DNA of 64,000 nucleotides from Parietichytrium sp. I65-24A (lineage: Eukaryota > Sar > Bigyra > Thraustochytrida > Thraustochytriidae). Positions within the stretch are counted from its first letter, which is position 1. Every line of letters starts with the position of its first letter. The translations under genes were made by a program, and so were the position numbers. Below are positions 21,623 to 61,586 of this stretch, piece by piece. The stretch spans positions 310,001 to 374,000 of the forward strand of contig BLSF01000012.1 in the NCBI GenBank assembly GCA_012862575.1. Direction: 5' to 3'. The notes beneath the pieces were generated by a model, which was not told where the DNA came from, did no database searches, and saw nothing but the letters and a program-made list of their open reading frames with translations.

Positions 21623-22315
21623 ACGGGCATTACTGATTCCCAGTAATTTGAGTACCTGGTCGGTATGGTTGTTGCTCTGTTTGCGGTATCGTGATCAGTA
21701 GACTAAATGAATACAGCGTCGACATCAGGGCGGGTCAGTTCCTGGTTTTGGCATTTTTGGCTCCCCTCTGTATGTAACTTATGTGTTCAAAACTACATCC
21801 TGGCACTAGTACACACAAGGCCAAGGCAAGGTCAAGGTCAATTTTCGAGACTCGGGCACAGCCTGACGGAACTCTGGGGGTCCAATAAGTTTAAACTTTC
21901 ACAGTCAGTGAACGTGCAAATTTTGATCTATCCAAGGTGGTTAGACTTGCCAGGGGCCCTCATAGTGTGAGGTACACTAGGTGCACTACGGATGCAACCT
22001 TATCTTATTTTGATCAGTCTCAAAAGAGGATTGAAGGAGTAGATTTACTCTCGGGCTGCCAGGGCTGAGCGGCTGCACTGCTTGAAACTGGAGTGTTCAA
22101 GGGTAGAATGCACGGAAATGTTAGTTAGCAATACGAAGCAGTACTATCACTGGCGGCTGGAACGCTCGAGAATACAATGAACAATGTCACACTCAATTAA
22201 CGAAGTTCCTCTTTCTGTTTTAAAAAGGCGAGATAAAATTTCCAAGGCGCCGCTTTGAAAAACGCCAAACAAGATCCGGCCGCAAGAGGAAGATTCAAAA
22301 CAGCGCCCGAGACGC
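21623..22315. other. Intergenic, no gene seen
   Basis: Spacer between two minus-strand genes. No coding signal was seen; it holds the RhoGEF promoter and the 3' end of the SAM-domain gene. Confidence 0.5.
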
Positions 22316-23395
22316 TCAAACTACTCTCAAACCCTTCTTAATCTGCGACTCTTCAACATAGTGTAGGATGCTTCGCACAAGTTCTTTGGCACCGTCAGAA
22401 ACACCAATTCGTCTGATGTCACCCTTAGCGTCTCCTTGCCGCAATCTAATAATAACGATTGCATCAGGGCGCTCGCGGTAACGATGTTCATATCCACAGC
22501 AATACTTGCGAAATGGGCCTATCCAATAATAATTCCCGCCATTCGGTTCCCGTTCAAGTGATTGGCAAGTGCAGCTCCTCATGCAATCGGCGCAGGTTTT
22601 GTGGTAGGAGTTGACTTTTGGAACCTCCTCGAGATCTACGTCAACAATATTACTGTAGTCCACGTTGTCAATAACCATTTTATAAGCAGCTTTATTCGGA
22701 TTGGTCAGAGCAACGTTAAGCTCCTCGTATTTCTTCTGAACCACATCGTCAAGCCAAATGGGTGCCGAGATTGAAAGATGGTCGCGATACACAATAACCG
22801 AAGACTCTGGCAGCTCTTGAAGCGCCTTTGGAGAGCAGGTAAGAAAGTCAATGCATTTTTGGCAAGGGATTCTTGAATGTCGTGTGGCATGGCAATTGCA
22901 GATATCACACGGGGCTGAATGCCACTCATGCATCTCCCCCCAGAAGGTGAGTCGCCTGACCATGATCGCCTCCTGGCGTTGCTCCCCTCGCTCCACCTGA
23001 TTGAGTTTTGTACACAGATTAAAGAATGCTTTGGACTCTCCCAAACTGGAAAAACCCATCCGATCGACGTCACTTTCGTTGAGAGTGTGTAAAATCGATC
23101 CATTCAATTGATTCTTGAGCACCAGGTCCGGAAGTTGCGAGAGGCCAAGTCGCTGAAAAAATTGAGAAAGTTCCACCATGTCCATCTTTTTGGCTTGTTC
23201 CATTTGCTCCTCGGTCAAACTCGACAGCACACGTGCTGGGTCCACCATCGAGGAGTGAAGTCTGGACATTTCCTGCTCGCTAGGCGCAGCCTCCTTGGCG
23301 ACGGGTGCTTTCATGGACTGCTTGTTGGACCGTGGCGGTACTGAAGGCTTCTTGGTGTCGTCCATTTCCACGTCCATGATCTGCTCTTTCCCCAC
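22316..23395 (-). CDS. SAM-domain protein with novel cysteine-rich C-terminal region
   Basis: 359 residues. The first ~65 are disordered and Ser/Pro/Lys-rich. A SAM domain follows at about 72-137 (LSQFFQRLGLSQLPDLVLKN, then LHTLNESDVDRMGFSSLGES). The remaining 220 residues hold two cysteine clusters. One is CDICNCHATRHSRIPCQKC. The other, in the last third, contains CADCMRSCTCQS and KYCCGYEH. The spacing suggests zinc binding, but I do not recognise it as RING, PHD or B-box. The segment between them has predicted strands and an FxP-like aromatic patch (YYWIGPF). SAM domains mediate oligomerisation or RNA binding. Function is unknown; it is divergent from the C9orf78-like gene. Confidence 0.7.
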   Translation of the reverse strand: MGKEQIMDVEMDDTKKPSVPPRSNKQSMKAPVAKEAAPSEQEMSRLHSSMVDPARVLSSLTEEQMEQAKKMDMVELSQFFQRLGLSQLPDLVLKNQLNGSILHTLNESDVDRMGFSSLGESKAFFNLCTKLNQVERGEQRQEAIMVRRLTFWGEMHEWHSAPCDICNCHATRHSRIPCQKCIDFLTCSPKALQELPESSVIVYRDHLSISAPIWLDDVVQKKYEELNVALTNPNKAAYKMVIDNVDYSNIVDVDLEEVPKVNSYHKTCADCMRSCTCQSLEREPNGGNYYWIGPFRKYCCGYEHRYRERPDAIVIIRLRQGDAKGDIRRIGVSDGAKELVRSILHYVEESQIKKGLRVV

Positions 23396-31474: not shown

Positions 31475-32856
31475 GGTTCCCTCGCTTGCATTCTAGCTCG
31501 CCTCAAAGCCAAACCAAGCGGAACAGGGCACTCACAGCTCAGTGATGCCCTGGTGAGCACGATCTGGTCTCCAACCCTCTAAGTCTCTGATACCTGTACC
31601 CTTCCTCTACCCTCTTTACCCTCCTCCTACGGGTGCTCACTGTGGCACTATCGCTCCGAGTCGCCCTCCACTACCACCCCACTTCTATCACATACTTCAT
31701 GGGTAAACTAACGCTGCGCGCTATGGCTTCTAGTCGCCTCCGCAGACTCGGGATGACTCAGGACCGGCGTCCTTCCTTCTCCCTTTTCACAAACTTGAGC
31801 ACCCAACAAGAAGAGAGCAGACTCACCATATCTGGTAAAAGCGAAGCTGCGACTTTTTAGCTTACAGTGCGTACGAGACTTTTTCGGACGGACGAGTAAC
31901 GCCAAGCCTGACGTGTCGACGACACCTGGTTCTCAACAGCCTTCTGGAATATGGCGATTCTGAAGACTGCCAAATGTAAGATTCTCTTCCTTCTATCCTA
32001 TTCCTAAAATTGGTTGCTTCGCTGAGTGGTTGCCATCAGAGATACTTTGGCTTGTCACCTTTACCGGAACCAAGTTTCCAGCTTTCAAATTTCCACCTCT
32101 TCTACTATTCTACTTGCTTCGATAGATGTGCTTGGTAAGAAGGGACCCAAATCTTTCCGAGGGCGCGCACCCCTAGAAACGTGACCGAGAGATGGTGCTA
32201 AGTCACTCTCCTGTCTCCTGTCTCCTGTCTTCTGTGCAACCCGGGACACCACTACGGCAGGGGTTACAGCCCCTCGCAATCGTTCGCTTCCGTTGGAGTT
32301 GGAACTGCAGCCTTAGGTCGCACTGGACACTGAACTGCGCACGGGACGGCAAAGCATGTCGGCGACGTGGTGCGACTTGGGTTGGACGGGTATAGTACTT
32401 AGTAGTGTGGCACTCACTGTGAGTACAAATGACCCTAAACAATCTTAGTCCAGCAACGCTGATAGTACTGTGTAGAAATTTCCACTTGGATGTAAATTCT
32501 GGCACAGTCGATGCAATTTTCATACCAGCTTGGATTGGGGGGAAATGAGAGGATGGAGCAAAGTAGGCACGGACTCACGGACGGACAGACTCACGGACTC
32601 ACTGCCAAAACGGCATGCGTGTGCGCCAAAAGAGACACCCGGCTCGAAAACGAATATGGTGGGTGCTAAAGAAACCTGGGAAGCAGGCCCACAAGTTCTC
32701 TGAGTGATTTTTCCAAATCTGATACGAGATTTTCCCAACGAGATGGTGGCGGTATTGGTGGCCATGAAAACATCTTGGGTACTTACGCTATGCGTCACTC
32801 ACCCTCTCCTCATTTCACCACACCAACCCAACCCAACCCAATCCCCCTCCCCCCCC
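31475..32856. other. Intergenic left of assembly gap; short repeats
   Basis: No supportable gene. It includes tandem CTCCTGT units at about 32208-32240, the motif ACTGTGAGTAC (reverse complement of GTACTCACAGT) at 32416-32426, and CACGGACT repeats at about 32570-32600. Just before the gap is an AACCC/C-run tract (32820-32856). Open frames that cross the gap are artefacts of N bases. Confidence 0.5.
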
Positions 32857-33211
32857 NNNNNNNNNNNNNNNNNNNNNNNNNNNNNNNNNNNNNNNNNNNN
32901 NNNNNNNNNNNNNNNNNNNNNNNNNNNNNNNNNNNNNNNNNNNNNNNNNNNNNNNNNNNNNNNNNNNNNNNNNNNNNNNNNNNNNNNNNNNNNNNNNNNN
33001 NNNNNNNNNNNNNNNNNNNNNNNNNNNNNNNNNNNNNNNNNNNNNNNNNNNNNNNNNNNNNNNNNNNNNNNNNNNNNNNNNNNNNNNNNNNNNNNNNNNN
33101 NNNNNNNNNNNNNNNNNNNNNNNNNNNNNNNNNNNNNNNNNNNNNNNNNNNNNNNNNNNNNNNNNNNNNNNNNNNNNNNNNNNNNNNNNNNNNNNNNNNN
33201 NNNNNNNNNNN
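32857..33211. other. Assembly gap (355 N)
   Basis: A run of N bases. It is preceded by (AACCC) units and a poly-C tract, suggesting the assembler stopped in low-complexity DNA. The true length is not known. Confidence 0.98.
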
Positions 33212-33335
33212 TCGCCTTCAATCAAGTCAGAGAGCTTTGGAAATACGAGCAAAACTGATCGGAGTTCTCGATGCAGAAAAAATTGAGACCAGACCCCAAT
33301 TCGACTCAGCTCGTAATACGCTTATCTTTGCTGAA

Positions 33336-35126
33336 ATGACCTCCATACAAGCCTCCAATCCCAAGTACTGCGAAGAAGCCAATGGCTCTATCGATAGCAT
33401 TCCTGTTTCTCGAGCCGTACACCATGGCCGGCCTCGTAAACGCTTCTTCGGGGGACTTGCTGCACTTGGCTTGGTTGCGGTAATAGCAACGTCGATTGGA
33501 ATTATCGTTGCCAGACAATACAGTGACGATGAATTGGGCTCGACGCAGGAGGACTCTGCGTATTCCAGTCTAGAGAGTGGAGTCGAAGTTCGAGAAGACT
33601 CGACTAGATATTATGTTTCTTCGGGGGCTGGTCTTGAAATTGCATTGCATAAAACGTCTTGCGATTTGACGTCTATCAAATTTGATGGTGTGGAAACCCA
33701 GAGCAATTACGAAGGCAAATACTCCCATATTCGGTCCGGGCTCCGCGCAAAGGCTGTGATGGAGAGTGACAGGAGCACGTTTGCAAAATTCACCTGCCAA
33801 AGAGGAGCTCTCACCCACTACATGATTATTCTTGGGATGCGAAACTATATTCTCATGGGCACTTACCAAAGCGCCACGGACTATTCGGAAACTCGGTTTC
33901 TCCTGCGCCTCAAAATGGACGTTATTGACGAGTGTCCAAAGGAGAACGATATTCGTGGCGCAGATGTGATTGAGGGATCAGACGTTTTTCGTCATGGCGA
34001 CGGAATGACTAGCTGCAAGTTCTTCAGCGCAAGAAGAGTGATCGACTCTAACTCCTTCGGGGCGCGGTCAACGAAGCACAACTTTGGAGTATACTTTGTG
34101 ATTCATGAAACCGGCCTAGAGACCGGGGTGGGAGGGCCGTTCTTCAAAGACATCCAGCAACAATGTACGACTGGCCGACACGAGATCTCGCACTACATGA
34201 ATTCCGATCACGTTCGTTCCGAGGACTACCGCCTAGGGTTCCATGGCCCATATGCTGTAACCTTTCAGCGCGGCGCAGTACAGCCAACCGCCAGAGATGT
34301 CGACTTCAGTGTGATGGACAACTTTGAATTAGTAGGCTACGTGCCAAAGTCGCAAAGAGGTTTTGTTGCGGGGGTTGCCATTCTCACTTCTTATGGACGA
34401 GCGTTTGACCACACAATAGTATTTCGGAATGCGGAGGCGCAATATTGGACAAAAGTGGTTGGCGACAAAGGTTACTTTTCCGGCCCGTGGATGAAGCCTG
34501 GTACTTACGAGATGGTCCTGTTTCGCGAAGAACTGGAGGTAGCCTCAAGCACAGTGTCGGTCGCCATCGGACAACGGACCGTGCAAAACATAAGGTACTT
34601 GGTGGACCCGGAACCCGCTCTTTTTCGGATCGGAACCCTGGATGGGAAGCCCTTGGAATTTTTGAATGGCGACAAGATAACCTCCATGCATCCAACCGAC
34701 GTCCGAATGCAGCCGTGGTCGCCAGCCACTTTTGTCGTGGGAAGAGATTCAGCCGACATGTTTCCTTTAGCCATATTTAAAGAAGGGCAAGAACCAGGAA
34801 GGGTTCAGTTTTCGCTGACGATGGAGCAGGCTTCTGCACCACATCGAGTAATTATTCACATCACACACTCTTCTAACGGAGCTCGGCCAAGAATTGCCTT
34901 GAACGATGCATACACAGGACCAATTGTAGCTGCACCAACGAAAATAGACTCTAGGGCCATCACTCGCGGATCTTACAGAGGATTCAATCAGCAGTTCGAG
35001 TTTGTTGTTCCTTCGTCGGCATTCCTCGCGGGTGATAATCTGTTGACTATTAGCGCTGTCTCTGGCTCTTCCGGTGCTGGCTTTCTTGCGCCAAACTTCG
35101 TGCTTGACTGCATAGAGTTTTACTGA
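33336..35126 (+). CDS. Membrane-anchored PL4-type rhamnogalacturonan lyase
   Basis: Cleaves the rhamnose-galacturonate backbone of pectin by beta-elimination if active. From the ATG at 33336 the protein has 596 residues. A cytosolic tail ends in GRPRKRF, and a single membrane helix follows (GLAALGLVAVIATSIGIIVA, about 31-50). The family 4 lyase N-domain carries the marker GVGGPFFKDIQQQ. A short FnIII-like domain (KPGTYEMVLFREELEV) and a C-terminal carbohydrate-binding beta-sandwich (ending NFVLDCIEFY) follow. The frame stays open 41 codons upstream to the gap, so more N-terminal sequence may be missing. Secreted fungal and bacterial lyases lack this anchor. It is convergent with the CH-domain gene. 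Confidence 0.8.
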   Translation: MTSIQASNPKYCEEANGSIDSIPVSRAVHHGRPRKRFFGGLAALGLVAVIATSIGIIVARQYSDDELGSTQEDSAYSSLESGVEVREDSTRYYVSSGAGLEIALHKTSCDLTSIKFDGVETQSNYEGKYSHIRSGLRAKAVMESDRSTFAKFTCQRGALTHYMIILGMRNYILMGTYQSATDYSETRFLLRLKMDVIDECPKENDIRGADVIEGSDVFRHGDGMTSCKFFSARRVIDSNSFGARSTKHNFGVYFVIHETGLETGVGGPFFKDIQQQCTTGRHEISHYMNSDHVRSEDYRLGFHGPYAVTFQRGAVQPTARDVDFSVMDNFELVGYVPKSQRGFVAGVAILTSYGRAFDHTIVFRNAEAQYWTKVVGDKGYFSGPWMKPGTYEMVLFREELEVASSTVSVAIGQRTVQNIRYLVDPEPALFRIGTLDGKPLEFLNGDKITSMHPTDVRMQPWSPATFVVGRDSADMFPLAIFKEGQEPGRVQFSLTMEQASAPHRVIIHITHSSNGARPRIALNDAYTGPIVAAPTKIDSRAITRGSYRGFNQQFEFVVPSSAFLAGDNLLTISAVSGSSGAGFLAPNFVLDCIEFY

Positions 35127-37869: not shown

Positions 37870-39163
37870 GCCGTGAACTCCTTCAGCGCAACAAGCTTCG
37901 TCACGACGACCCTAGCCAGCACAGCAAAAGTTTTGCAGCTCTCTGCTTCCGCTCGAGGGCAAAGCGCTCAGCCACTCGCCCGTGGAGGATACGACTACTC
38001 GCTGGGCATGCAACTTGGTGACGCAAAGTCTTTGGACTCTCACACGCCTCGCTTCGGCACGGCACCCTCGCACTCCATCTCCTATCTCCTATCTCCAACC
38101 TCCTATCTCCAATCTCCTATCTCCTGGACGCGATTCCGCTTGGTGGACAAGAGATGCGTTACATCACGTTGTTCCGGAGGCCGAGGCACTGTGGCTACAC
38201 CATCACGTACCATCACGTACCATCACGTCTCTAACACATATTACCATAAATGATGACCAGGGACTTGGTACCGGTAGGTATAATGTACGGAACCGATGGG
38301 TTCTCTACACTCGACTAGCTTCCTGATGCTCCTGATGCATACAAGACACTGCTCTTTCGTCCTGATGGAAAGAGACACACAAGCGTTGCTTTTAAATTTC
38401 GTGACACCATAGCGTTCTTTGTCTGATCATTGTATTTTACAGTTAAAAGCTGAGAAACTGGTAGCGCCTGCCTAACTTTAAATTGATGGAAATCAGTTCC
38501 AGGGAAAGCGAACGATAGTGACTGGTGGTAACCCCTGCAATAGTCGACCAGCAGCATTTGATAACACTTATTAGAACCGGTAGTACTTCGAAGGTGAGCT
38601 TGAGGTTAGCTTGAACCTAACCCAACACCTTCGACACCCTTGACTGAAAGGTCCGTTGCCACGGTCAAATGAGGCCTGGCCCGCGGCGCCGAAAAGTTAT
38701 CACAACATGACCCATTGGAAGTGACGGCGGCCCAAAACTAACTCTTTACCATTCTCGTGCCAAGAAAACAAGCTGGTTTTACACAAAAATGTGAACAACG
38801 ATTACTTCCTCAGTTTACCAACTTCTGCCCTCGCACATCTTCACACCCCTTTTCACACGTACCTGCTTGTACCTTGCCTAGCTGTGCACACAGCAAGCTG
38901 CAGTAACAGTAGAGGAAGCAGCGCGGATTCGAGCTTTTGGCAGACACCTCCGCGCTGGAAATTCTCACATCGAGAGGCATGGCCTTTTGGTCCTCTTGTC
39001 AGCACTTGAGCCGAGGTTTCGCTTCATAAAGCTGACACATATCTCGCTTAAAGTGCCGAGGTTTGGGGCGTTCACAGCGGCTGCAGTCACCTTGAGAGAC
39101 GAACGCTTTTGCAAGCACGCACCAGGGGGTGAGCGAACAAAACGCGCTGCGACACAGGGAGCA
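37870..39163. promoter_or_regulatory. Divergent promoter region of SPATA4-like and PACRG genes; two short tandem repeats
   Basis: No gene seen. A CTCCTAT/CTCCAAT repeat spans about 38072-38125. (CATCACGTAC)x2 plus CATCACGT lies at 38201-38228; it contains CACGT boxes. Sharing of one control region by two ciliary genes is inference. Confidence 0.35.
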
Positions 39164-40206
39164 ATGGTATTCACGGAGCACATTGGGCCTGACGCGAGCA
39201 GGGCTCGCTCAGCTTGGGGTTCGCGCTCGTCAAGAGACGGTGGCTCTGGGAATGCGGATGGCCTCAGACGAGGGGCAAAGGATGGAGCTTCGAGGCCTCT
39301 TGCATCTCCGAAAATAGTGGTCACACCTAAGCGCGCTGCGGTTTACCCAAAGTGGGAGTCTGGAGGCGCTGGCGATGAAGCTATTCCAAGCTGCTTGCCT
39401 CGCCGAGCACGAGAAACGCGAACCTCTTCGAAGTCGCAGCGGCCACAACCAAAGCTTGCGAGTAGCACCGCCAAACCAAAACTTCGCCCAAAGCCAGCGC
39501 CGCCTGTCGCCGGAGCTTGGACAAGCAAGCCCACAACGCACTCCAATTCCCCGACTGCTTTCAAGGTATATTACGACCGGGGTGATATTCCAGCGCGTGT
39601 TGGGCATGGTGCCAAACGCAAGGTTCATTGGAAGTGCAACATGGACACTCTTGACTACCATGTGTGTAAGTTTTTCGGCAGCCTTTTATTCTCAGTATAT
39701 ACTTTTTTGCGAGTTCTAGTAGAGACGCAATGACTGACGTTTTGTTCTGATCAGATTTGCCTGTGTTTTTCGATGGGTTACGAGACACAAATGAGCCATA
39801 CAGCTTCTTGGCATTCAGTGGTGTCCAGGACTTGCTAGAGCAAGGTCGCGACCGTGTGCTTCCGATCGTTCCGCAACTAATTTCGCCTCTCAAGAAGGCA
39901 CTGAATTCAAAGCACAAGGAGACTCTTTGCAAAGTACTCCAGGTCATTCAGACTCTGTGCGACATCCCCTACGTTGGCGAAGCCCTTGTTCCATACTATA
40001 GACGCCTTCTTCCAGCCTTCAACCTGGTGCTGCTTCTGGAGAAGAGAACCAACATTGGTGACAGAATCGACTATTCTCAGCAGAAGAGAGAAAACCTTGT
40101 GGACCTCATCAACGAGACACTAGAGAAAATGGAGGACTCGGGCGGCGAGTTTGCGTTTCAGAACATCAAGTACATGATTCCGTTTTATGAAAGTACATCG
40201 ATTTAA
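39164..40206 (+). CDS. PACRG: Parkin co-regulated gene protein (PACRG)
   Basis: Two exons, 39164-39665 and 39755-40206, with an 89-nt intron (GTAAG ... GATCAG); 317 residues. Splicing gives LDYH-VYLPVFFDG, matching LDYHHYLPLFFDGL of animal PACRG. The core (about 125-317) is strongly conserved: KVYYDRGDIPARV, ILPVLPQ-like VLPIVPQLISPLKKAL, ALVPYYRRLLPAFN, IDYSQQKRENL, FQNIKYMIPFYES. PACRG is an inner-junction protein of axonemal doublet microtubules. The N-terminal 125 residues are basic and disordered. The frame is open to an upstream ATG at 38987, but the 39164 start is closer to the known size. Confidence 0.93.
39666..39754 (+). other. Spliceosomal intron, 89 nt
   Basis: Donor GTAAG, acceptor TGATCAG. 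The phase-1 join builds the tyrosine codon in VYLPVFFDG of PACRG. Confidence 0.9.
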
Positions 40207-41548: not shown

Positions 41549-43222
41549 TCAGCGGCGCTTCTTTCGCGCTCTGCTAACGGACAACATTGTTCCCGCTTGC
41601 CCAGGTCTGCCATTCAGGTATTTGATTGCCTCATCAGCGCTCTGCAGTGTCTTCAAAGTGATGAACCCGAAACCTTTGCCCTCGATTATGTGTATGCGAG
41701 GGCTGCCCGTCCGATCGTCCTTCTCGATGCCGTAGTGCTCGAAGAGCCGCAACATCTCGTTAAATGCCGAGCTGCTCTCTTGCGGCAGTCCCGAGACGTG
41801 CAAAACCCGTTCCTCGAATTGCTGAGTGTGTGCAGAAGGCCTGATGTGATGTGAGCGGCCTCTGCCACCGCCGCCGCCCGAAAACCCGCTTGAGAATCCA
41901 CCTGACGGAGGAGGGGCACTGCCTGGAACTCCTGACCCCGAAAAGCGATGGTGCTTTGAGCCATGAAATTTGCCATCCGAAGCACCAGGGTGCTGCAACA
42001 ATGTAGACTTTGCAGCCACCGGTTTCTTGTACCCCCACCAAACTCGATTTATGATCACGTTCTCGGCATCCCCGAAGCGAGATTCCTTTACAGGCACCAC
42101 CAAATAGAGGTTATCATTAGCACGCAAGTACTTGGCATCTGCGCGATTTCGAAAGGAAGAAATATGCTTGCCGTTGAGATACACCACAAATTCGCTCGGG
42201 AGAACGTGTATGCGGAGCTCAAATTGCTCGTTCTTCACGATGGGAAAGCCCTCAATACTTCGGTCAGCCTTTCCCCAAACCTGCTTAGAGAATGAGCTTT
42301 GAACGATGAGCTGCTTTCCCCAGCCATCGCGTGGATTGAAGTGATACAAAATTACCGTGTCCGGGTCCTTCTCGTCGTGCAACCTGTCAGGCGATATGTT
42401 TATGCAAAACCTCTCCGAAGAAGTCGGCATTTTCCCCCAGATCACCAGGGTGTTTCCTCCCTTGCCATTAGCATCGTCATTGAAAGAGAGATTCGGAAGC
42501 TCGCAAATAAGCGGCTCGGAGTTTTCTGTGGAATTCCAGTCACTAGTCTGTATGAATCTGTCTTCTTCAAATTCCGACCCGCTACTCGGAGATATGAAAC
42601 AATTTGCAAGCGGTTTGGATTGCAACATTACCGGCGGGGGAGGTGGTGAACTTGGTGACCCTCCCACGCCAGACGAGGTAGCAGCTCCGTGAGACGCACT
42701 ACCTGTCGATTGCTGTTCTTCTGGCTGATAAACCATGAGACGGGGCCGTTTGACGGTTGCGCGGTCACGCTCAGTCCTTGCCAAGGACTTAAAGTTTTGC
42801 TTTCCAAAAGATGCAAAAGGTTTGTTCGGCCCCACTTTCAGAACAACCTTTTTGGACTTTGCGTACTTCTCCAAAAGCCTAACCTCTTCCTCTGTAAGAT
42901 CTAAAATACCACGGTACTGTTCCGGAATTACAAACCCTCGCTTTTCCGCTTGAGCAATTGCGCTACCGCCGCTACCGGGCGCGGCAACAGGTGCCAAAGA
43001 TGACGATGAAGAAGACGCCGCACCAGATCCCTTGCTACCAGACTTTGTCTTTAATTTTTTTCGGACTGAGGGCGTGTACTCGTCGTCCAAGATGTGGTCG
43101 TCAAACGCCTCGTCCCCGTCCTCCATCTGGTATTCATCTTCGCTGATCTCTGCGCTGCTCACGCTAGAAGAAGACTCCGCCTGGCGCTTCAGAGGGAGCT
43201 TAATCCGGATCTTTGTAGCCAT
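41549..43222 (-). CDS. Galectin-fold plus RRM protein
   Basis: 557 residues in one uninterrupted frame. The N-terminus (1-200) is Ser/acidic and basic, with KKLKTK and Pro-runs. Residues ~255-390 match a galectin carbohydrate-recognition domain: GNTLVIWGKM, FCINISP, ILYHFNPRDGWG, LIVQSSFSKQVWGKADR, FELRIHVLPSEFVVYLNGKH. Of the eight sugar-contact positions, H294, N296, R298, V307, W316 and R321 are kept; the second Asn is S309 and the Glu is A319. A Gly/Ser/His linker leads to an RRM at 472-553 (RNP2 VLHVSGL, RNP1 KGFGFITL) and a basic tail KKRR. It probably acts in the nucleus on RNA; sugar binding is doubtful. I know no named protein with this combination. Confidence 0.8.
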   Translation of the reverse strand: MATKIRIKLPLKRQAESSSSVSSAEISEDEYQMEDGDEAFDDHILDDEYTPSVRKKLKTKSGSKGSGAASSSSSSLAPVAAPGSGGSAIAQAEKRGFVIPEQYRGILDLTEEEVRLLEKYAKSKKVVLKVGPNKPFASFGKQNFKSLARTERDRATVKRPRLMVYQPEEQQSTGSASHGAATSSGVGGSPSSPPPPPVMLQSKPLANCFISPSSGSEFEEDRFIQTSDWNSTENSEPLICELPNLSFNDDANGKGGNTLVIWGKMPTSSERFCINISPDRLHDEKDPDTVILYHFNPRDGWGKQLIVQSSFSKQVWGKADRSIEGFPIVKNEQFELRIHVLPSEFVVYLNGKHISSFRNRADAKYLRANDNLYLVVPVKESRFGDAENVIINRVWWGYKKPVAAKSTLLQHPGASDGKFHGSKHHRFSGSGVPGSAPPPSGGFSSGFSGGGGGRGRSHHIRPSAHTQQFEERVLHVSGLPQESSSAFNEMLRLFEHYGIEKDDRTGSPRIHIIEGKGFGFITLKTLQSADEAIKYLNGRPGQAGTMLSVSRARKKRR

Positions 43223-44193: not shown

Positions 44194-47142
44194 CTAAGAT
44201 GCGGCCGCAAAGCGGGAGTGACTTTGCAGTTCTTTCAAGAATGAGTCGTAGAGGACCGCAGAGTCGATTTTTGGCTTGCTAGTGAGGTCCACCGATTTTG
44301 CTCTCCGCGGCGCCGATGTATGTTTGATGCGCTTTGACTGCTTCTGCGCCTCCGCTACATCTTGCCTCTCACGATCGGCGGCTACAACTCGCATGCAATC
44401 TTGGAGATCAACTAGCCATCGCAAAACGTCATCCTCTAACGGAGTCAGGAGGATGACCGAGCATGCGGTCCGAATGGCTAAGCAGCCATCTACACTGTCT
44501 ACCGTTGTAATGTTTTGCACTTCCACCATCTTCACGATGTGGTACTTTGTTTTGGTCTTCCACTTATTTGCAGCTTTCAGAGTCAAGAACAGCGCTCCTG
44601 TAAAGAGCATCGCATAACACGACCCAGTCTTGACGCCCTGAATCTTGGCCAACTGCGTCGCAGGGCCATGTTCCGTATCTCCGCTTTGGGGGTGTTGGCC
44701 AGAAGAGCTCACTCCGGTGGTAAGGGTCTGAAAAGTAACCTTTCCGTAGCGGTAGAGTCGTTTGCATCTTGACTGGTCACCAAGCCCGAGCCTTTCTACA
44801 GGTTCCCTGGGTCGTAATTGCTGCGCGAGATCGATGGCCTTTCGGGTGTCGTAGTCTTGATGCTGCTTCATTATCTCGTTGACGTCATTGGCGATTTTTG
44901 AGACCTTGTCAAATGCCTCCTTGACCACGTAGTAAGACTCCTCATCCTCAGTTCCGTTGTACTTTAATATTTCGCGCATCAGGAGCGGATACTTGGTGAT
45001 TCGCTGCATCGGCTTGATGAGGAAAGAAGATAAGTCGAGATTATTGAGTCTCTCCCTTTCTTCGAATTGTTTTTGAGCAATGAACATTTTCGGCGAGATC
45101 GCATGACCATTCTTGTTCTTCTGCAAAGCCTTGCAGGCGATCGGCTGGTTGACGACGCAAGGAATACAGAGCTTCAGCCAGTCACTCATTTCTACCATAG
45201 ATTGACAAATCATTATAGCTGTTTGTCTTAAAGACATGTGCCATGCTCTGATTTGGTAATTGTCAAGAAACACGAATTCTGAGAGGTGTTCGCGGTGGAT
45301 ATGGTCGAGCATCTTGAGGAGATGCCTGAGATTTTCGACAAATTCCGTAGACACCAGGCCCTGTTGTGCAGCTCCCGTTTCGCTCACAGAAGTTTTAGAA
45401 AAACTTTGCTTGAGCAGCGCTTCGTTAGAACTCGAGCCTTTTACATTTGACTCCTGTGAGTAGATTGCTCTCTGCACACGCGGATCTCCCTTAATGATCG
45501 AAAACGTTTCCGACAAGGCTTGTATACTGGGAAGCCCTTCAGCAAGAGACAACAGGACTTGTTCGTGAACTCTTAGCAACGGAACCCAGTCAGAAAACAC
45601 TTGGCGTGTCAAGACGGGACCGAATGTTGTCTGGAATGGCCCAATATATACATCCAGAACCGTCTGCAGATCATGAACGTGGCGCATTTCGGTGTCGACG
45701 ACCTCCATGAGCGAGTGAAATAGCGAGTTGCACTGCTTTTCAAGTTTGAGAAGCTCTGGCGATATACACTCGCTATTTATTTTCGGAGCGCTCGCGTTAT
45801 TTTTGCTCGAGGACACGGAGCCGAAAGAGTCTGTGTGGCCCATGTGCAGATGCGAAGTGCTTGCACGCCGCGAATTTTTAATTAGTGCAACGTGAATAGA
45901 AGGAAAGTACCCAATTACCTCCTTTCCATCTCGCAGCGCTCGTCCTTTCCAGAGGACGCCGCCACTAGTCTCTGTCGAGGACTCGTCTTTTTCCTCCTCC
46001 TCCTGATCGATTATTTCAATGATCTGACCTTCGGAAAAGCTCAAGTGGCCAAGTTCGTGGCCATCATACGACACCCTCGCGCGAGCCATCGTTTTGGGGG
46101 GGCGAAACGCAGTTGGAATGGACTCCTGTTGTGGGCCTTTCTTTACCCAGCTTTCTTTTGAAGCAATCTTTCTCGCCTGCCGTAGCGGAGAACCATCCAA
46201 GGAGTTACCGGAAGAGAAGCTTCCGCTACTAATAGAAGCCACTTCTTCCTGGGCATCGGTGCGGACAGGGCTACTTCCACTCACACATGAACAGCTTCCT
46301 GTGCACCCGCCGCTATTATCCCTACAATGCTTGGCGATAGGTTGCGAAACATTGCTACGGTCTGATGACGGTGGGCTCGCCGACGTCGGCTGCCGAGGTG
46401 ATGGACTTGAATAGCTAGACTCCTGAGACAAGTCCGACTGAAAGTATACCTGTGCTTTCGGCTTCGATTCTGCAGCCCTTGGAGTTTCCCTTGACTGCAT
46501 CGCCGACCCATGTGCGCTGGGAAATGCCGCCGGCTCGTCTGCGCCTGTAGGCGTGCTTGGGCCTGATCTTCCCATCGAGATTCCCCCAGTCGCTGAGCTT
46601 GAGGGGCCTGATGGGACTGGCGGAGGCATACCACTTTTGAGAGCATTGCTCCTGCTGGGAGCCATCAACTGGGCGATTGCCGCATCTTTTGTACTCTGTG
46701 ACCAAGTTGGCAAAGGTGGTGGTACTTTCCTTCCTGTGCTTAGACGCTTCCTGGCTTGAAGCGGGGTTCCTGATGGCGCACTGGCATTGGCGGTCGCTGG
46801 AATTGGAGGGGGCGGAACCTGAGGCGGCGGGGGTGGTAATGCGGCACCTTCGTTTGGGCGAAAGGCTTGCTCATCGTTCTCAAGGGGTTGGTCCCGATGA
46901 ACTTGAACGATTCGATAACTGATTGGCCGAGGCGGTGGCGCTGGTTTATCCTTGGCCGAGCTATTGTCCTCTGCTTTATTCTTCGAAAGCGGCGGGGGTA
47001 CTCTTTTCGAAGGGCGCGGTGGCGGTGAAGGACCCCTCTGGGTGATCGGAGTGGACGACATTGGCGATTTTACTGCATGCGTTGCTCTCTCTTCACTCGT
47101 GTGACAATGAATTGCACTTTCCACGCCGCAGCCGGTTTCCAT
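44194..47142 (-). CDS. SH3-DH-PH Rho guanine nucleotide exchange factor
   Basis: 982 residues from this start. A proline-rich disordered region (about 28-330; PPPRPSKRVPPPL, PPPPPQVPPPPIP) precedes an SH3 domain at about 351-422 (ARARVSYDGHELGHLSFSEG, GYFPSIHVALI). A DH domain follows at about 470-790 (SLMEVVDTEMRHVHDLQTVL, then SSFLIKPMQRITKYPLLMRE). The DH carries a Ser-rich insert of ~60 residues and a second inserted loop. A PH domain (about 810-925; KLYRYGKVTFQ, DDVLRWLVDLQDCM) ends the folded part. The start is uncertain: ATGs at 47061 (MSSTPITQ) and 47406 are in frame. The layout resembles SH3-containing GEFs acting on Rac/Rho at the cortex. The proline motifs could bind its own or other SH3 domains. 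Confidence 0.87.
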   Translation of the reverse strand: METGCGVESAIHCHTSEERATHAVKSPMSSTPITQRGPSPPPRPSKRVPPPLSKNKAEDNSSAKDKPAPPPRPISYRIVQVHRDQPLENDEQAFRPNEGAALPPPPPQVPPPPIPATANASAPSGTPLQARKRLSTGRKVPPPLPTWSQSTKDAAIAQLMAPSRSNALKSGMPPPVPSGPSSSATGGISMGRSGPSTPTGADEPAAFPSAHGSAMQSRETPRAAESKPKAQVYFQSDLSQESSYSSPSPRQPTSASPPSSDRSNVSQPIAKHCRDNSGGCTGSCSCVSGSSPVRTDAQEEVASISSGSFSSGNSLDGSPLRQARKIASKESWVKKGPQQESIPTAFRPPKTMARARVSYDGHELGHLSFSEGQIIEIIDQEEEEKDESSTETSGGVLWKGRALRDGKEVIGYFPSIHVALIKNSRRASTSHLHMGHTDSFGSVSSSKNNASAPKINSECISPELLKLEKQCNSLFHSLMEVVDTEMRHVHDLQTVLDVYIGPFQTTFGPVLTRQVFSDWVPLLRVHEQVLLSLAEGLPSIQALSETFSIIKGDPRVQRAIYSQESNVKGSSSNEALLKQSFSKTSVSETGAAQQGLVSTEFVENLRHLLKMLDHIHREHLSEFVFLDNYQIRAWHMSLRQTAIMICQSMVEMSDWLKLCIPCVVNQPIACKALQKNKNGHAISPKMFIAQKQFEERERLNNLDLSSFLIKPMQRITKYPLLMREILKYNGTEDEESYYVVKEAFDKVSKIANDVNEIMKQHQDYDTRKAIDLAQQLRPREPVERLGLGDQSRCKRLYRYGKVTFQTLTTGVSSSGQHPQSGDTEHGPATQLAKIQGVKTGSCYAMLFTGALFLTLKAANKWKTKTKYHIVKMVEVQNITTVDSVDGCLAIRTACSVILLTPLEDDVLRWLVDLQDCMRVVAADRERQDVAEAQKQSKRIKHTSAPRRAKSVDLTSKPKIDSAVLYDSFLKELQSHSRFAAAS

Positions 47143-47406
47143 GCTCTGGAAGGACCGGCGCAAGGGGCACTCTGCTGAAATGGCTGAGTGCTCTGTCGTC
47201 AAATTTTGGGAGAAACGTGTCCAGGGCACCTGCGAAAGACTCCGACTCTCCGAGTCCCTGTCTCTGGTATGGCTGCCAGCGAAAGCTATTTTCAAGCGCC
47301 AGCTCAGCGCCAGAGAAGCACGATTCGTCGCGTTTTCGAGCCGGACGACTGCCAAGGGCGACACAGGACACACGACACTCCTTGCGACTCTTCTTATCAT
47401 GCCCAA

Positions 47407-54020: not shown

Positions 54021-57000
54021 ATGGCGAGCGAAGAGATCTCTAAGAAGAATAAGAAGAAGGCAATTTCCACCTCTACAGCTGCAGCTGCAGCTGCGTCGGC
54101 GGCCCAAGAAGATACTCAGGCGCCAGCGCTGGGTTTGGCTTCTTCATCTTCAACGGCAAGGGAGCTTAGTCCTCTTCGCACTGGGACTGGCCCGACCCAA
54201 TCTTTGAAAAAAGGTGCTGATAGCAGCAAAAACGCGAGCAGTACATCGAGGTGCAAGAGAGCCGCCCCGGCCTCTCCGAAATTCGTTTCGGACGATAATA
54301 CAATTGGGGATTACGATGATGCGAGCCAGAGTCGATCAAGAGCAAAGGTTTCGGCCAGAGAGAATGAAATTAAAGAAAAGGACATCAAGGAGGAGCAGAC
54401 TGCCGCGGAAAGCGATGCCGTTGCGAAAAGCGGCGCGGACAATAGTGAAAGGAAACGTACTCAGGATACCCATGAGGTACCTCTCAAAGGACACTGTCAG
54501 TCGCATGGTAGCCCGGTGAAAGGATCAAGCCAGAGTCTCGTGCCTGATATCACAGCATCTGGTCGTGTAAAAAGCAGCTCCGCGCAGGACCTAGATAGCA
54601 GGGAAGGTGCTCAGATGGATTTAAAGCTTCGAACATGTTGTGAACATTCAATGCCCGCACCGTCGAATCAACTCTGTCTCCTAGTAAACTTTTACCAGCA
54701 ACATCGACCAGCAACTGCGGCATTGCAACTGCGGCTTACACTGGAACTTGCGAGGGCCGGCTTGGTTCGCAAATTGACAACGAGATGGGACGATAATGAG
54801 CTTAGTGTCAGTGTGACGATGGATCGCCCGAGTGAAGCGTGCAGAGCGGTAGAATTAGTCAACTCCTCTGCAATTAAATTGCCCCATGGCGCTGATCTGC
54901 GGGCGTTTGCGGAGGACATGCACTGGCGCACCCGGCCTCCCTGCCACATTCTCATCCATTGCTGCCCACGTCAAGTTGTCAAGAATTCTCCAAATCCCAC
55001 CGCTGGCCAGTTGCACCGTGACAAAAGCTCAATCCCCGTCAAGGTTCCAGAGGATCGGAAGGTTGACAAATCGAAGAGCACTGACTCGCCGCCGGTGAAG
55101 CGAAAAAATTATCCCGTGGACCCTGGTTCATCTCCTGATGTGAATCAAAAGGCGCGGGAGCCATGTGGCGTTGACATGGAGCAGCTCCACCAAGCTCTTG
55201 TGGAGCACTTTGATCGACTGATCGAAAGCGGTCATCAGTCTTTTGGCGCGACTGCTGAGACAGAGCAGGCTTATGTTGATACAATTCGGGTTAGGTTTCG
55301 ACATTGCGGTGCCTTGAGTTCCATCGATTGTCTGGAAGTTCGAAGCAGCACTTCTCCTTCCGATCGCTGGTTTGTGGTGCAGTTCAATAGGTCGTCGCAA
55401 GCGCTGGCCGCATTGGAGGACTGGCAAGAGAGAGGAATGCGCATTGACGCAGAATGCGACTTTGCGTGTGTGCATTACCTCGAGCAGGCGATAGAGGCTC
55501 ATATTACCGTCAGTTCCAATGAGGGCCTGACTCATGGTACCGGTGAGCGACAGCTTGGAGCTGTTAGCTCGCTCTCCTCTTCTCCAAAGTCTCGTACAAA
55601 TTCGTTTGCAAGTTCATTCTCACCAAATCCACGCCCGAAATCTTCTCCGTCTATTAGGACCAGACTCAAGACAGAAGTTGGGGAACCACTTTCCCCTTCG
55701 AGGTCGGGAACGACTGAAGTGCACCGGAAAGGCAGCCCTACTGACTCAGCTCTCAATGCCGAAGAGCGTGAGATAGCCTATCTGAACAAGCGCACACGAT
55801 CAAGCTCACCTATCTTGCCTGCAACCCACGGAGGAGAGCAGCAAGGCTTGATCGAGAACGAAATTGGTGGTGCCCTGCGTCAAAAAAGAACGAAAGGTTC
55901 CCGGTCGGAGTTGACGTCGTGCATGAGAAAGGAGCTCTTTTCTAAGGCCGTAGTAGAGAATGAAGCCGGGGCTATTTCCGCTTCTTCATTTTACAATAGT
56001 GCAAGCGGGGTTAAGCCGCACCGCAGCGAAGCCGTCGAGAAAGAGTGCAAGTTGATTTTATTTACTACGTCGGATGTTTCTGCAGAAGATATCAAAAGCG
56101 AACTACATGGGATCGCTGGGTGTGCGGTTGAGAGTTCCGATATTGCCCCAAGCCTTGCGGATGTCGGTGTGCAAGTGGACGTCTTTTGCAAGAGTCGCTC
56201 AGTTGCGATTCAAGTCTGCGAGGCTCTACAAGGGTTTGCAGGAGATTGTGCTGACTTTCCTGATCGAGATATGCGGAAAGAGCATTTGCCCATATCCAAA
56301 TCGCTGGTCGCCGAGACGCTACCTGAGGAAGAAGCGGCAGATCCTACGGCTGCACGGAGGCCATCAGACCCTTTATCAGTCAAAAGGCAGCAACTTCAAA
56401 GTGCTTCTGGGGGGAAAGAAAGAGAGTCCGAAATAGAATTAGATCGTTTGAAATTGCAAGGCCCGGGCGACGCGTCTGACGGTGAGGTAGAAAGGCAGAA
56501 TAAGACGCCAAAACGCGCCGAAAGTGATACGTCGAACAGTTTGCTAGTTGCAAAGCGGCAGGGAAATCATACGCACGAGCAACCAAATTCGAAGCGAGCC
56601 GCAAATTTGGCAGAAATGAGGCGCCAGGCTGAGAGCGAACTAGCACTTGAGCTGGAGAGAACCACTGGTGAAACCAATTGTGAGGCCGAGGACTTTGGAA
56701 CGAGCGAGAAGAGCTTTAGTACTGCTTCAATGGAGGACAATGCGGATAGCCTGGCTGCAAATTTCCAGACGGCCGTGGGCTTTTCCTCCTCGGCAAAGAG
56801 CGCTGCTCCATCGGGCTCTAATTCTCTTTTTGCTATTACTCGCTCGCACCAGTCCGGACGAACGGGCCACAGGACCCCTCCCCCAAATCAGCGTGGGCCG
56901 CATGAACCGGACAATTCGACAATGCAAGCCGGAAGCGGTATGCCATCGCATCGGCGAAGGATGCATGTTCAAGACCTGGGCTATCAAGGGCAACTGGGCC

Positions 57001-57644
57001 CGGAGATGGGCGGATTTGCCGGCCACTTCTTCCACCACCCTCACCCGCAGCAATTTGCGGCCCCGCCTCATCCAGCAATCATGCCTCCTTACTTTGCTCA
57101 GCCAGTATATGGAAACATTCCTCCCCCACCTCCCCCCCCACCTCCACACCACACGCCCGTAGGCTGGCAGTACATGGGATATCCCGCCTCCCCGCAGCAA
57201 ATGGAAGCTGGTCTACCGATGACACATCAGCACAGCTTGGGACCGCACGCTGTCCACGAAGCAGGGGGCAATGGTCCATCAAGTAGCAACATCAGTGTCG
57301 CGCCCGACGAGCCTAATGAAGATGGTGAAGAATCAGCCCCTCTCGAGACTTCGCGGCTCTACGTAGCCTTCAACCGGCCCCTTCCTGAAGACGCTCTGTG
57401 GCAAGCCTTCAATGAAGTTGCGCCAGGACTTGAATACGTGAGTCGGCCGCGTGAAAAGTGTTTCGTATTTGTGAAATACAGCAGCGAAGCCGCCGCCAAG
57501 TTGGCCATGTTGCGGCTGAATGGCAAGGAGGTCCTTGGGCAACCGCTACGCATTTCAATCGCGCAACCTCCGAGATCTGCTCCGAGTGGGAGAAAGCGGC
57601 AGCGAACTGCAGACCTGGAAAAGCGCCCGAGTTCCAAACGCTAA
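54021..57644 (+). CDS. Large RNA-binding protein with C-terminal RRM
   Basis: 1207 residues, intronless. The C-terminal RRM is clear (about 1113-1185): SRLYVAFNRPLPEDALWQAF, KCFVFVKYSSEAAAKLAM, GQPLRISIAQ. Three earlier segments look like degenerate RRMs. One is near 225-310 (QLCLLVNFYQQHRP). The second is near 410-500 (TIRVRFRHCGALSSIDCLEV, WFVVQFNRSSQALAAL). The third is near 675-755 (CKLILFTTSDVSAEDIKSEL). Spacers are disordered and Ser/Lys/Glu-rich. A Pro-rich stretch with nine consecutive prolines lies before the last RRM. The N-terminus is Lys/Ala-rich. A multi-RRM protein related to RBM45/DRBP1 is one possibility, but I cannot name it with confidence. Role in mRNA processing is inferred. 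Confidence 0.75.
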   Translation: MASEEISKKNKKKAISTSTAAAAAASAAQEDTQAPALGLASSSSTARELSPLRTGTGPTQSLKKGADSSKNASSTSRCKRAAPASPKFVSDDNTIGDYDDASQSRSRAKVSARENEIKEKDIKEEQTAAESDAVAKSGADNSERKRTQDTHEVPLKGHCQSHGSPVKGSSQSLVPDITASGRVKSSSAQDLDSREGAQMDLKLRTCCEHSMPAPSNQLCLLVNFYQQHRPATAALQLRLTLELARAGLVRKLTTRWDDNELSVSVTMDRPSEACRAVELVNSSAIKLPHGADLRAFAEDMHWRTRPPCHILIHCCPRQVVKNSPNPTAGQLHRDKSSIPVKVPEDRKVDKSKSTDSPPVKRKNYPVDPGSSPDVNQKAREPCGVDMEQLHQALVEHFDRLIESGHQSFGATAETEQAYVDTIRVRFRHCGALSSIDCLEVRSSTSPSDRWFVVQFNRSSQALAALEDWQERGMRIDAECDFACVHYLEQAIEAHITVSSNEGLTHGTGERQLGAVSSLSSSPKSRTNSFASSFSPNPRPKSSPSIRTRLKTEVGEPLSPSRSGTTEVHRKGSPTDSALNAEEREIAYLNKRTRSSSPILPATHGGEQQGLIENEIGGALRQKRTKGSRSELTSCMRKELFSKAVVENEAGAISASSFYNSASGVKPHRSEAVEKECKLILFTTSDVSAEDIKSELHGIAGCAVESSDIAPSLADVGVQVDVFCKSRSVAIQVCEALQGFAGDCADFPDRDMRKEHLPISKSLVAETLPEEEAADPTAARRPSDPLSVKRQQLQSASGGKERESEIELDRLKLQGPGDASDGEVERQNKTPKRAESDTSNSLLVAKRQGNHTHEQPNSKRAANLAEMRRQAESELALELERTTGETNCEAEDFGTSEKSFSTASMEDNADSLAANFQTAVGFSSSAKSAAPSGSNSLFAITRSHQSGRTGHRTPPPNQRGPHEPDNSTMQAGSGMPSHRRRMHVQDLGYQGQLGPEMGGFAGHFFHHPHPQQFAAPPHPAIMPPYFAQPVYGNIPPPPPPPPPHHTPVGWQYMGYPASPQQMEAGLPMTHQHSLGPHAVHEAGGNGPSSSNISVAPDEPNEDGEESAPLETSRLYVAFNRPLPEDALWQAFNEVAPGLEYVSRPREKCFVFVKYSSEAAAKLAMLRLNGKEVLGQPLRISIAQPPRSAPSGRKRQRTADLEKRPSSKR

Positions 57645-58987: not shown

Positions 58988-59267
58988 TGCTGAATTCAAG
59001 TCCTTTGGACCAAGTCAACTTTTTGGTGTGTCCGAAATGTTCAGCATAGTGAAATCAAAAAGTAACGAAAGAATCTCTCTATGCTTGTGTAACTTTTTCT
59101 CTTCCGGCAAAGCACCTTGTGTTTAAACTTGTAGAGCTATGTGCACAGAGCGCAGGAAATCGAGTCAGGAGAAAATAACTATTTCATTTGTGAGTTGTTT
59201 TTTTAAAGTCAGTGCATCAGAAGAGAGCGCCACAGCTATGTCATGTGATCGTTTAGGGGCTAATTGT

Positions 59268-61571
59268 TTAGAATTCAAGTGCATTCACGAGGGAAAGCTC
59301 CTCGAACACCTGAGGAGCTGCGTCGGCGACGGTGGCCGCCTCATCAACAACGTTCACAGAAATGTGGGACTGTGCGAATGGCAAGAACTCACCACTCAGG
59401 CTCGCTACAACGTAGTAGGTTCCCGCCTTAGCTGGTGGCAAGAGCTCCGCATTCACCTTCATGGTTGCGCCGCGCTTGAGGTCTTGGCAAACCTCTACAC
59501 TGGTGACATTTTCTGGCTTGTCATTAAAGTTGAGCTCATGAGAGTGCAAAGTGATGCAGACGTGCTTGAGAGTAAAGCTGAGAGGGTTGCGAAACTTGGC
59601 AGAGACCTTAAATGCCTTAGCCGAGCTCGAGGAACCAACAACAACCTTCTCAGGTGCTTTCATGACAACTGGTGGTGCGTCAATGTCAAGAACATCCTTT
59701 GCGAAAATGACCTTGCCACCGTCAGAGGACCCAGTGGCGACGATACGCACAAAGTAGTCTCCGAGATCCTTTTGCAAGTACACACTCGAGTCCACGGAGT
59801 ACGGAACTTCCACGCGGGAGCCCTTGACGAGGACACGAGAGGAGGTAGACTGCAATGTTTTGACCTCCTTTCCAGTGCGAGTTTCCAAAGTAAACATCAT
59901 GTTGAGCTGGATGTACTCCCCCTGAACGAAGCTTTCGGTGTCAATCTCCACGAACCCGGTGATTGCGGACCCAACGATGACTCCGTAGCTGTCAGGAACA
60001 ATGGTGACTGCATCGTCATTGAGGGCGTCGCCGAGCATCATGCCGCATGGCTGGTCCTCCCCGCTACGAAGCATTCTGCGAGAAGCAGTTTCCTCTTGAA
60101 ATGGGATGAATGCATCCGTGTTTGGGTCGATAAACTCGTGGGTAATGTTCTTTTCCTGAGCCGTTCCGTTGATGGTCTGGGAAGAAAGAATGAGTTTCAG
60201 GCCAGCGTGATCGTAGCGGAGAAGCTTTTCAACCTTGCAGCCCTTCAGCTGGTCCTTGCGCTGATGTTCCTTATTGCACTTCACCAGGAAGGTACGGGAG
60301 GTGGAGTGCACAGTGCTGAGAACATCGCTGACGTTAAATGGGTAGGTCTCATTGAAGTCGTGGATGGCCTTGACTGCAGCAGGTCCAATCTTGCCTGGTG
60401 GAGTGCCGTCCAGACTCTGCCATCCAGACATGCTCTTCTCGTCACGCTGCATCCAGATGTCATTCCAAGAGTGGTAGTTCCATGCTTGTGACTCCATGTA
60501 AACGGCCGAACCGTTAATGTCGTAGTATTCGTCAGCAACATGATGAAGCTTGTGGTGTTTGTCGCGGCGGCTGGACATGTCCATCCATGCGCCAAAAGCT
60601 GTGATTTGACGTGAGCCCACTCCGATAGCACGCATGAGGGCGTTCTGGAGAGCGCCAAACACCCAGCACTGTCCGTACTGAGTTGGCTTTCCAGTCTCCT
60701 TCCAACGGTTGAGAATGTCCGTGGTGGAAACCCACAGCTCTGGGGAGTTGGTATCATCAAAAGGGAAGTCACCCCAGTTGCCCTCCAGAAGGGAGTCCTC
60801 AGTACCCACGAGAACGCTACCATCCTTCTTTCTCATCATACCTTGGTTCTGTGCCATCGTCTGCACAACATGGAAAGGATCTGCAGCAAGAGTACGGTTT
60901 ACTTTCTTGAGGAGGTGAAAGACGGCGTCCAACGTGATCTGGTCGGATTGGCCGTAGTACCACTTGGTGGTCTCGTACGAGTTGGTAGATCCGCAGAAAA
61001 CATCTCCGTAGGTGTTGAGAATGTGCTCCTGGCGCATTTCCTCCGTTGGGATGTAGATGATGGAGTCCTCCTGGTTCCATGGATTGAACAGCATGTACAG
61101 AGGGAATGGGTACTCGTACACAATGGTCTCGGTGTTGTTAAGAAGCTCTTCGTCAGTGGACTCCACGGTGAAGGTAATGTCCTCGTACTTTCCGACGGCG
61201 GTGTTGACAGAAGTCTCCACGCTCATAAGGTAGGTGGTCGAGCTCAGAGCTTTGACGACCTTTGTGGTAAATGAAGGGTTGTTGTACTCTGCCACATCGT
61301 CATTCTCCATCGAAATGGTCATCGAGTTGAGGTCAAGTGGAGCATCGGTTGTCACAATAAGCTCGAAAGACTGCCCGCGGCGAACAGCAAAGCCTCCCTC
61401 AATTTCGAAATGGTCTGTGTGATGCTCGGCGAGAGAAGAGTTGGTGATGAGAGCACCGACAATCTTTGGGCCGGTGCTGGCAATGATCTCATCGATACTC
61501 CGGTCCTCGGTGGTATTCTCGAGGCCGTTGACGGCCACGAGCCCCGCGAGGAGCACGGCAAAGACCTTCAT
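59268..61571 (-). CDS. Secreted animal-type transglutaminase
   Basis: Cross-links proteins through Gln-Lys isopeptide bonds, calcium dependent in known members. The ATG at 61571 (MKVFAVLLAGLVAVNG) gives a clear signal peptide; one five codons earlier is also in frame (772 residues). Numbering from that longer form: N-terminal beta-sandwich at about 30-160. The catalytic core has C307 in QYGQCWVFGALQNAL, H372 in WNYHSWNDIWM and D393 in GWQSLDGTPPGKIGP, matching the Cys-His-Asp triad of factor XIII almost position for position. Two C-terminal beta-barrels lie at about 520-772. The length equals the animal family norm. Several N-glycosylation sites fit export. Codons are strongly biased to C/G third positions, unlike neighbours, which suggests high expression. 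It is convergent with the coiled-coil gene. Confidence 0.88.
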   Translation of the reverse strand: MKVFAVLLAGLVAVNGLENTTEDRSIDEIIASTGPKIVGALITNSSLAEHHTDHFEIEGGFAVRRGQSFELIVTTDAPLDLNSMTISMENDDVAEYNNPSFTTKVVKALSSTTYLMSVETSVNTAVGKYEDITFTVESTDEELLNNTETIVYEYPFPLYMLFNPWNQEDSIIYIPTEEMRQEHILNTYGDVFCGSTNSYETTKWYYGQSDQITLDAVFHLLKKVNRTLAADPFHVVQTMAQNQGMMRKKDGSVLVGTEDSLLEGNWGDFPFDDTNSPELWVSTTDILNRWKETGKPTQYGQCWVFGALQNALMRAIGVGSRQITAFGAWMDMSSRRDKHHKLHHVADEYYDINGSAVYMESQAWNYHSWNDIWMQRDEKSMSGWQSLDGTPPGKIGPAAVKAIHDFNETYPFNVSDVLSTVHSTSRTFLVKCNKEHQRKDQLKGCKVEKLLRYDHAGLKLILSSQTINGTAQEKNITHEFIDPNTDAFIPFQEETASRRMLRSGEDQPCGMMLGDALNDDAVTIVPDSYGVIVGSAITGFVEIDTESFVQGEYIQLNMMFTLETRTGKEVKTLQSTSSRVLVKGSRVEVPYSVDSSVYLQKDLGDYFVRIVATGSSDGGKVIFAKDVLDIDAPPVVMKAPEKVVVGSSSSAKAFKVSAKFRNPLSFTLKHVCITLHSHELNFNDKPENVTSVEVCQDLKRGATMKVNAELLPPAKAGTYYVVASLSGEFLPFAQSHISVNVVDEAATVADAAPQVFEELSLVNALEF

Positions 61572-61586
61572 TCTGACTTTGCGCAC

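Follow-up and report, generated by a model that had tools for sequence, protein, structure and literature searches.

The closest described systems are the galectins of animals, two of which, galectin-3 and galectin-1, have been reported in nuclear RNP complexes (PMC11239732). In the case of galectin-1 this is said not to involve carbohydrate binding, and the association of galectin-3 with U1 snRNP is described as affected by lactose (PMC11239732). Galectin-3 is also reported to bind hnRNPA2B1 in a lactose-dependent manner, and when it was silenced several genes were spliced differently (PMC4952364). Another group obtained no RNA crosslinks with tagged galectin-3 and found no direct RNA contact (PMC11648975). 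Published views on a part of animal galectins in splicing differ. Sugar recognition is described through a contact set of eight residues in galectin-1, (H44, N46, R48, V59, N61, W68, E71 and R73), which can affect specificity and not every one of which, according to this nematode paper, is essential for sugar binding (PMC5297725). In galectin-1, -3 and -7 the glutamate at the E71 place takes part in a network of salt bridges that sets the orientation of the Arg73-type arginine, as described for the contact of that arginine with the aromatic ring of an inhibitor (PMC4945863).

In the stramenopiles, one galactose lectin is tabulated in eight of ten genomes, with none in Hyphochytrium and Albugo (Table 1 of PMC5795050); PF00337 is named in the methods for the Hyphochytrium search, and the same family is assumed here for the other genomes. 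The Saprolegnia genome paper calls ricin-like galactose-binding lectins absent from other oomycetes (PMC3681718), which is not easily squared with one galactose lectin per genome unless a different family is meant. Transcriptomes of marine rhizarians list galectin in two of four table columns (PMC4362344). The Pythium genome paper adds nothing on this point (PMC2926784). In PMC3129679 the word galectin occurs in the reference list only, and PMC11766507 does not mention the RRM.

The gene described here joins a galectin-fold domain to an RRM-type domain. It lies in a stretch of 64,000 nucleotides (the window) and is encoded on the minus strand as one frame of 557 codons running from 43222 to 41549, ATG to TGA. 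The preliminary description had noted a single uninterrupted frame in which a galectin-like domain, an RRM and a basic tail are fused, and this observation holds. The plus strand across 41549-43222 is interrupted by stops, and an in-frame TAG stands six codons 5′ of the start ATG. With a stop frequency of 3.6%, taken from the non-coding frames of 11 neighbouring ORFs, the chance of 557 open codons is near 1e-9, a rough figure in which codons are taken as independent. If frames shorter than 150 aa are disregarded, a RhoGEF protein (44194-47406) is the upstream neighbour on the minus strand, and a plus-strand frame at 38987-39733 is the neighbour on the other side. The features of the gene are as follows.

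41549..43222, minus strand: whole open frame, 557 aa, readable without an intron from ATG to TGA
42728..42967, minus strand: basic N-terminal segment, residues 86-165; helices in a low-confidence model, no recognised family
42467..42712, minus strand: Ser/Pro-rich acidic spacer, residues 171-252, from composition
42029..42466, minus strand: galectin-fold domain, residues 253-398, from the Pfam match at 256-363 (remainder extended by eye) and PDB galectins
42296..42298, minus strand: codon of S309, at the galectin-1 N61 position in the galectin-8 alignment
42266..42268, minus strand: codon of A319, at the galectin-1 E71 position in the galectin-8 alignment
41825..42028, minus strand: Gly/Ser/Pro/His-rich basic linker, residues 399-466, containing GGGGGRGRS, from sequence and composition
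41564..41815, minus strand: RRM-type domain, residues 470-553, from RRM matches and RNP motifs, borders by eye
41552..41572, minus strand: basic C-terminal tail RARKKRR, residues 551-557, NLS-like, from sequence

Ahead of the galectin fold the protein is poor in recognisable families. For residues 86-169 all Pfam matches fell below cut-off and PDB matches had E-values of 0.25 or worse, and the Ser/Pro-rich spacer is probably disordered. The N-terminus, read by eye, has no hydrophobic leader; basic clusters occur at 54-60 and 551-557, among others. The whole protein had no match in PHROGs. AlphaFold2 models built from the single sequence are of low confidence (mean pLDDT 37.8 and 43.8). When the model with pLDDT 37.8 was compared with the PDB by Foldseek, the first 22 rows were galectins, at a best E of 3e-3 (none of the 865 matches reaches 0.001), with TM-scores (target) of 0.20-0.25 and rmsd of 12-16 for those 22 rows.

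The galectin-type fold of the preliminary description holds up in sequence comparison. The Pfam scan places PF00337 at residues 256-363 with 64.4 bits (E 9.2e-18), 42 bits over the curated cut-off of 22.1 bits. A PDB sequence search returned 112 matches, the best 60 of which comprise 58 galectins or galactoside-binding lectins and two RRM proteins; the top matches are galectin-8 chains, where the best E of 3.5e-16 sums over two domains that singly give 7.7e-7 and 3.9e-6. In the Pfam scan of the whole protein with E up to 1, in which filters drop most matches above 0.1, nothing appeared besides PF00337 and RRM_1. The same scan thus contained no SPRY, concanavalin-like or other beta-sandwich family, which speaks against the case that the preliminary description had named as its own refutation, namely that the domain belongs to such a family.

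The sugar site is partly altered. The domain carries the HFNPR motif, and in the galectin-8 alignment, with the register to galectin-1 itself presumed from the galectin-1 sequence, six of the eight contacts are kept (H44, N46, R48, V59, W68 and R73 of galectin-1 as H294, N296, R298, V307, W316 and R321). The other two differ, N61 being replaced by S309 and E71 by A319, so that both the count and the identity of the changed residues agree with what had been noted earlier. Galectin-1 with the E71Q change is said to lose binding. Since a glutamate of the E71 type sits in the arginine-orienting network and not all contacts are essential, the galectin-fold domain has likely, not certainly, lost ordinary lactose binding. 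The preliminary description read the two changes as a hint of a repurposed pocket; the pocket may instead have been weakened. The list of contacts used in this mapping is the galectin-1 list of PMC5297725. As only six of the eight residues are present, the domain is named galectin-fold and is not called a proven galectin.

The C-terminal domain is probably a divergent RRM, which is short of proof. Its RRM_1 (PF00076) match in the Pfam scan, at residues 490-539, scores 17.1 bits (E 0.005) and lies below the cut-off of 20.7 bits, and the locus is absent from the 80 matches of a whole-genome RRM_1 search. An RRM-type domain had been claimed here and stands; that it is 'well-formed', as was also claimed, does not, given this score and this absence. 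Searched alone against the PDB, the domain matches poly(A)-binding protein at E 1.5e-5 (best single-domain E 1.7e-5) and the proteins HuC and HuD at 2.3e-7 and 2.7e-6, values that each sum two RRMs and become 0.0021 and 0.0026 for the best single domain. The NCBIfam model of the ELAV/HuD family gives E 8e-5 and 22.4 bits against a cut-off of 279.1. An RNP1-like motif, GKGFGFITL at 515, keeps both Phe residues. The RNP2 consensus has an aromatic Phe or Tyr where the RNP2-like motif, LHVSGL at 474, has His. The order of elements fits an RRM: the RNP2-like motif at 474, a helix at 485-497, strands at 508-514 and 517-522 with the RNP1-like motif at 515, and a helix at 529-537, the secondary structure being that of a low-confidence model. 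A search of its own genome with this domain by itself gives back the gene and a single further match, which is insignificant (E 0.32). The window contains a second RRM-bearing gene 11 kb from this one (54021-57644, plus strand), whose 1207-aa product, largely low-complexity by eye, carries an RRM (E 7e-8) at its C-terminus together with a basic tail.

Compared with galectin-8 and other animal galectins, the protein has in common the domain family, the HFNPR and WG...R motifs and, by eye, the lack of a leader peptide; it differs in having a single galectin domain, changes at the N61 and E71 positions, an attached RRM-type domain and ∼410 extra residues. Like galectin-3, for which a nuclear RNP role has been proposed (PMC11239732), it combines a galectin domain with a low-complexity segment, but galectin-3 is without an RRM (PMC11239732) and may not contact RNA directly (PMC11648975), whereas here an RRM-type domain is present in cis in the order galectin-linker-RRM. 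Galectin-13 and -14 are similar in that their binding-site residues are altered and lactose binding is absent or poor, and galectin-14 and -16 are described in the nucleus with c-Rel as partner (PMC11934519); in these three galectins, however, different positions are changed and there is no RRM. With ELAV/Hu, PABP-type RRM and Gly-rich hnRNP-like proteins the shared features are the RRM match, a Gly-rich linker with GRGRS and the basic tail. Unlike these proteins, this one has a single divergent RRM, far below the ELAV/HuD cut-off, and a galectin domain.

The pairing of a galectin with an RRM is, to our knowledge, unusual, both domains being ordinary by themselves, and a fusion of the two is named in no title or abstract start among the matches listed by our literature search. 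Its claim to be new rests on searches of viral and prokaryotic collections rather than eukaryote databases. The gene may be old, given the galactose lectins of most of the stramenopile genomes tabulated in PMC5795050, and the architecture may already stand in databases or have gone unremarked elsewhere. Single-sequence queries of this kind reach close relatives only, and in viral and prokaryotic collections the missing relatives say little about eukaryotes: the whole protein in viral_contigs gave three stretches that fit a pattern, and the galectin part gave 38 in genome_contigs and five in viral_contigs, none of them confirmed as a relative.

The genome assembly holding the gene comprises 42,540,916 bases in 172 contigs. 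In a PF00337 search of these 42.5 Mb this gene was the sole match found over cut-off, from two candidates, in a profile search that reads no introns and for which counts of large families are lower bounds. A search for paralogues with the whole protein, at E up to 10, returned only itself (one of three candidates scored). Pfam, run on 17 neighbouring frames, identified among others a PH-domain myosin, a sperm-type CH-domain protein, a parkin co-regulated protein (partial match) and two RhoGEF proteins, a set that fits a protist with flagella. The myosin is encoded in a single frame at 3906-8270 on the minus strand of the window (1453 aa as scanned), with the PH domain near its C-terminus. A PL4 rhamnogalacturonan lyase frame of 783 aa (32775-35126, plus strand) lies where the window is richest in AT (GC 0.409 at 32001-34000) and has a GC3 of 0.43 against 0.51-0.57 in ten other frames; it was possibly transferred, and in genome_contigs six stretches fit its pattern with no relative confirmed. 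Two long frames overlap on opposite strands, one of 450 codons at 59139-60491 (plus), which has no Pfam match, and one of 772 codons at 59268-61586 (minus).

Lineage markers in the genome were considered as well. Opisthokont EF-1alpha carries an insertion that marks the lineage. At what we take to be the insertion site, the EF-1alpha of this genome reads WYKGPYLLEALD and is without the insertion, and each of the eight chains listed is longer than this protein, with 441-443 residues where it has 431 (six rows) and 439 where it has 427 (two rows). An opisthokont origin of the genome is therefore unlikely. A fusion of TPI with GAPDH marks stramenopiles and some of their relatives, and was not seen in this genome: of two TIM genes, the one on contig C53 ends, by eye, without a GAPDH part and the other lies in a 256-aa frame, and none of seven GAPDH C-domain matches falls on contig C50 or C53. 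This speaks against a stramenopile; assigning the genome to that group, for instance to the thraustochytrids, would be a guess. The PUFA-synthase marker TIGR02813 had no match over cut-off in the genome. On contig C66, positions 8562-22499 (L006-L009, L012) form one open frame of 5583 aa that suggests a giant multimodular polyketide or fatty-acid synthase; four of its stretches match positions 176-516 of the PfaA model and three match 2093-2251, none over cut-off, with a model that also rings in 11 of 14 control genomes. Small-subunit rRNA is recognisable by eye only at its 3′ end, at L003 1-1670 and L004 1350-3019, with longer spans in Rfam. In L003 the rRNA end comes directly after sequence that, judged by eye, codes for the terminal part of a Copia-type retrotransposon, which may reflect an insertion or an assembly joint.

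Taking the observed fusion in one frame, its two domains as recognised by sequence and the changed contact residues together, we favour, at a probability of about one half, an RNA-binding protein whose galectin fold serves for docking instead of acting as a classical beta-galactoside lectin. The RRM-type domain, the Gly-rich linker and the basic tail would bind RNA, as the RRM match suggests, and the same C-terminal parts would probably take the protein to the nucleus, a location suggested by the basic clusters at 54-60 and 551-557. The galectin fold, in which two of the eight sugar contacts are altered, one of them at the Glu71 position, would dock a protein or an altered glycan ligand, by analogy with the animal precedents, and so could bring a partner to RNA-protein complexes; a role in splicing may be supposed. 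This reading draws on a galectin domain far above cut-off with its N61 and E71 positions replaced, on RRM matches to PABP, Hu proteins and, weakly, the ELAV/HuD model, and on the absence of an N-terminal hydrophobic leader, the basic clusters and the only galectin match found in the genome by an intron-blind search. Counting against docking, the domain retains six of its eight contacts, H-N-R and W among them, and a domain for pure protein docking need not retain these; not all eight are essential for sugar binding (PMC5297725), and some nuclear contacts of galectin-3 respond to lactose (PMC11239732, PMC4952364). Against the RNA-binding part stand the RRM score below the Pfam cut-off, the absence from the 80 RRM_1 matches and the His in RNP2.

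The main rival is a domain that still acts as a sugar lectin with shifted specificity, the protein tying glycan recognition to RNA or RNP granules; the glycans might be those exposed on damaged vesicles or the cell's own. It is kept in this place because H294, N296, R298, V307, W316 and R321 remain and some galectin-3 contacts are lactose-responsive, and it gains from contacts that are dispensable in part and able to affect specificity (PMC5297725). We nevertheless consider it unlikely, as the Glu that orients the Arg73-type arginine in galectin-1, -3 and -7 (PMC4945863) is here an Ala. That the protein is an ordinary RNA-binding protein whose galectin domain is a decayed passenger with no function of its own would agree with the two changed contacts, the lack of a paralogue in the genome at E up to 10 and the divergence of the RRM. 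A passenger in decay is decidedly improbable, however, for a domain that scores 42 bits above cut-off, keeps HFNPR and retains its coding bias throughout (0.155 bits per codon, whereas none of the other five frames exceeds 0.018).

Coding bias also bears on whether there is one protein at all. The two N-terminal parts (0.249 and 0.229 bits per codon), the galectin part and the RRM part (0.145) each exceed the other five frames, and the Ser/Pro spacer has 0.030 against 0.020 in another frame. The Gly-rich linker is flat, with −0.020 against 0.036 in another frame, so codon statistics are no proof that it is exon. The linker could conceal an intron or a gene boundary, leaving the domains in separate proteins made from two genes or from alternative transcripts; a GT-AG intron in it is possible, and a GAPDH-like match on contig C57, in three pieces of which one contains a stop, suggests that the genome has introns. 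Yet the frame is open along its whole length, and no in-frame ATG occurs between residues 265 and 490, the latter already inside the first RRM helix, which makes a separate RRM gene unlikely. A loose scan of residues 363-480 for GTAA, GTGA, GTAC and GTAT turned up four sites, all within codons 364-397, the linker proper being free of them, and an intron that keeps the frame would still give a fusion. Separate proteins are thus highly improbable.

In its widest form, the docking and RNA-binding reading would make this an old galectin-RRM protein from outside animals and fungi, with the galectin fold as the recruitment module of an RNA-protein complex, a proposition that we regard as quite unlikely. 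If it is true, this lineage would have an ancient and covalent partnership of galectins with splicing RNPs, and the sugar site would have changed to take a new ligand. The debate on nuclear galectins and RNA is conducted with proteins that themselves lack an RRM, galectin-3 for example. A naturally occurring fusion of a galectin fold with an RRM-type domain offers a direct test of whether the galectin part picks the partner and whether sugar is needed. The organism being probably neither animal nor fungus, its galectin domain, with the sugar site changed, may also help in asking what the fold does beyond the classical lectin.
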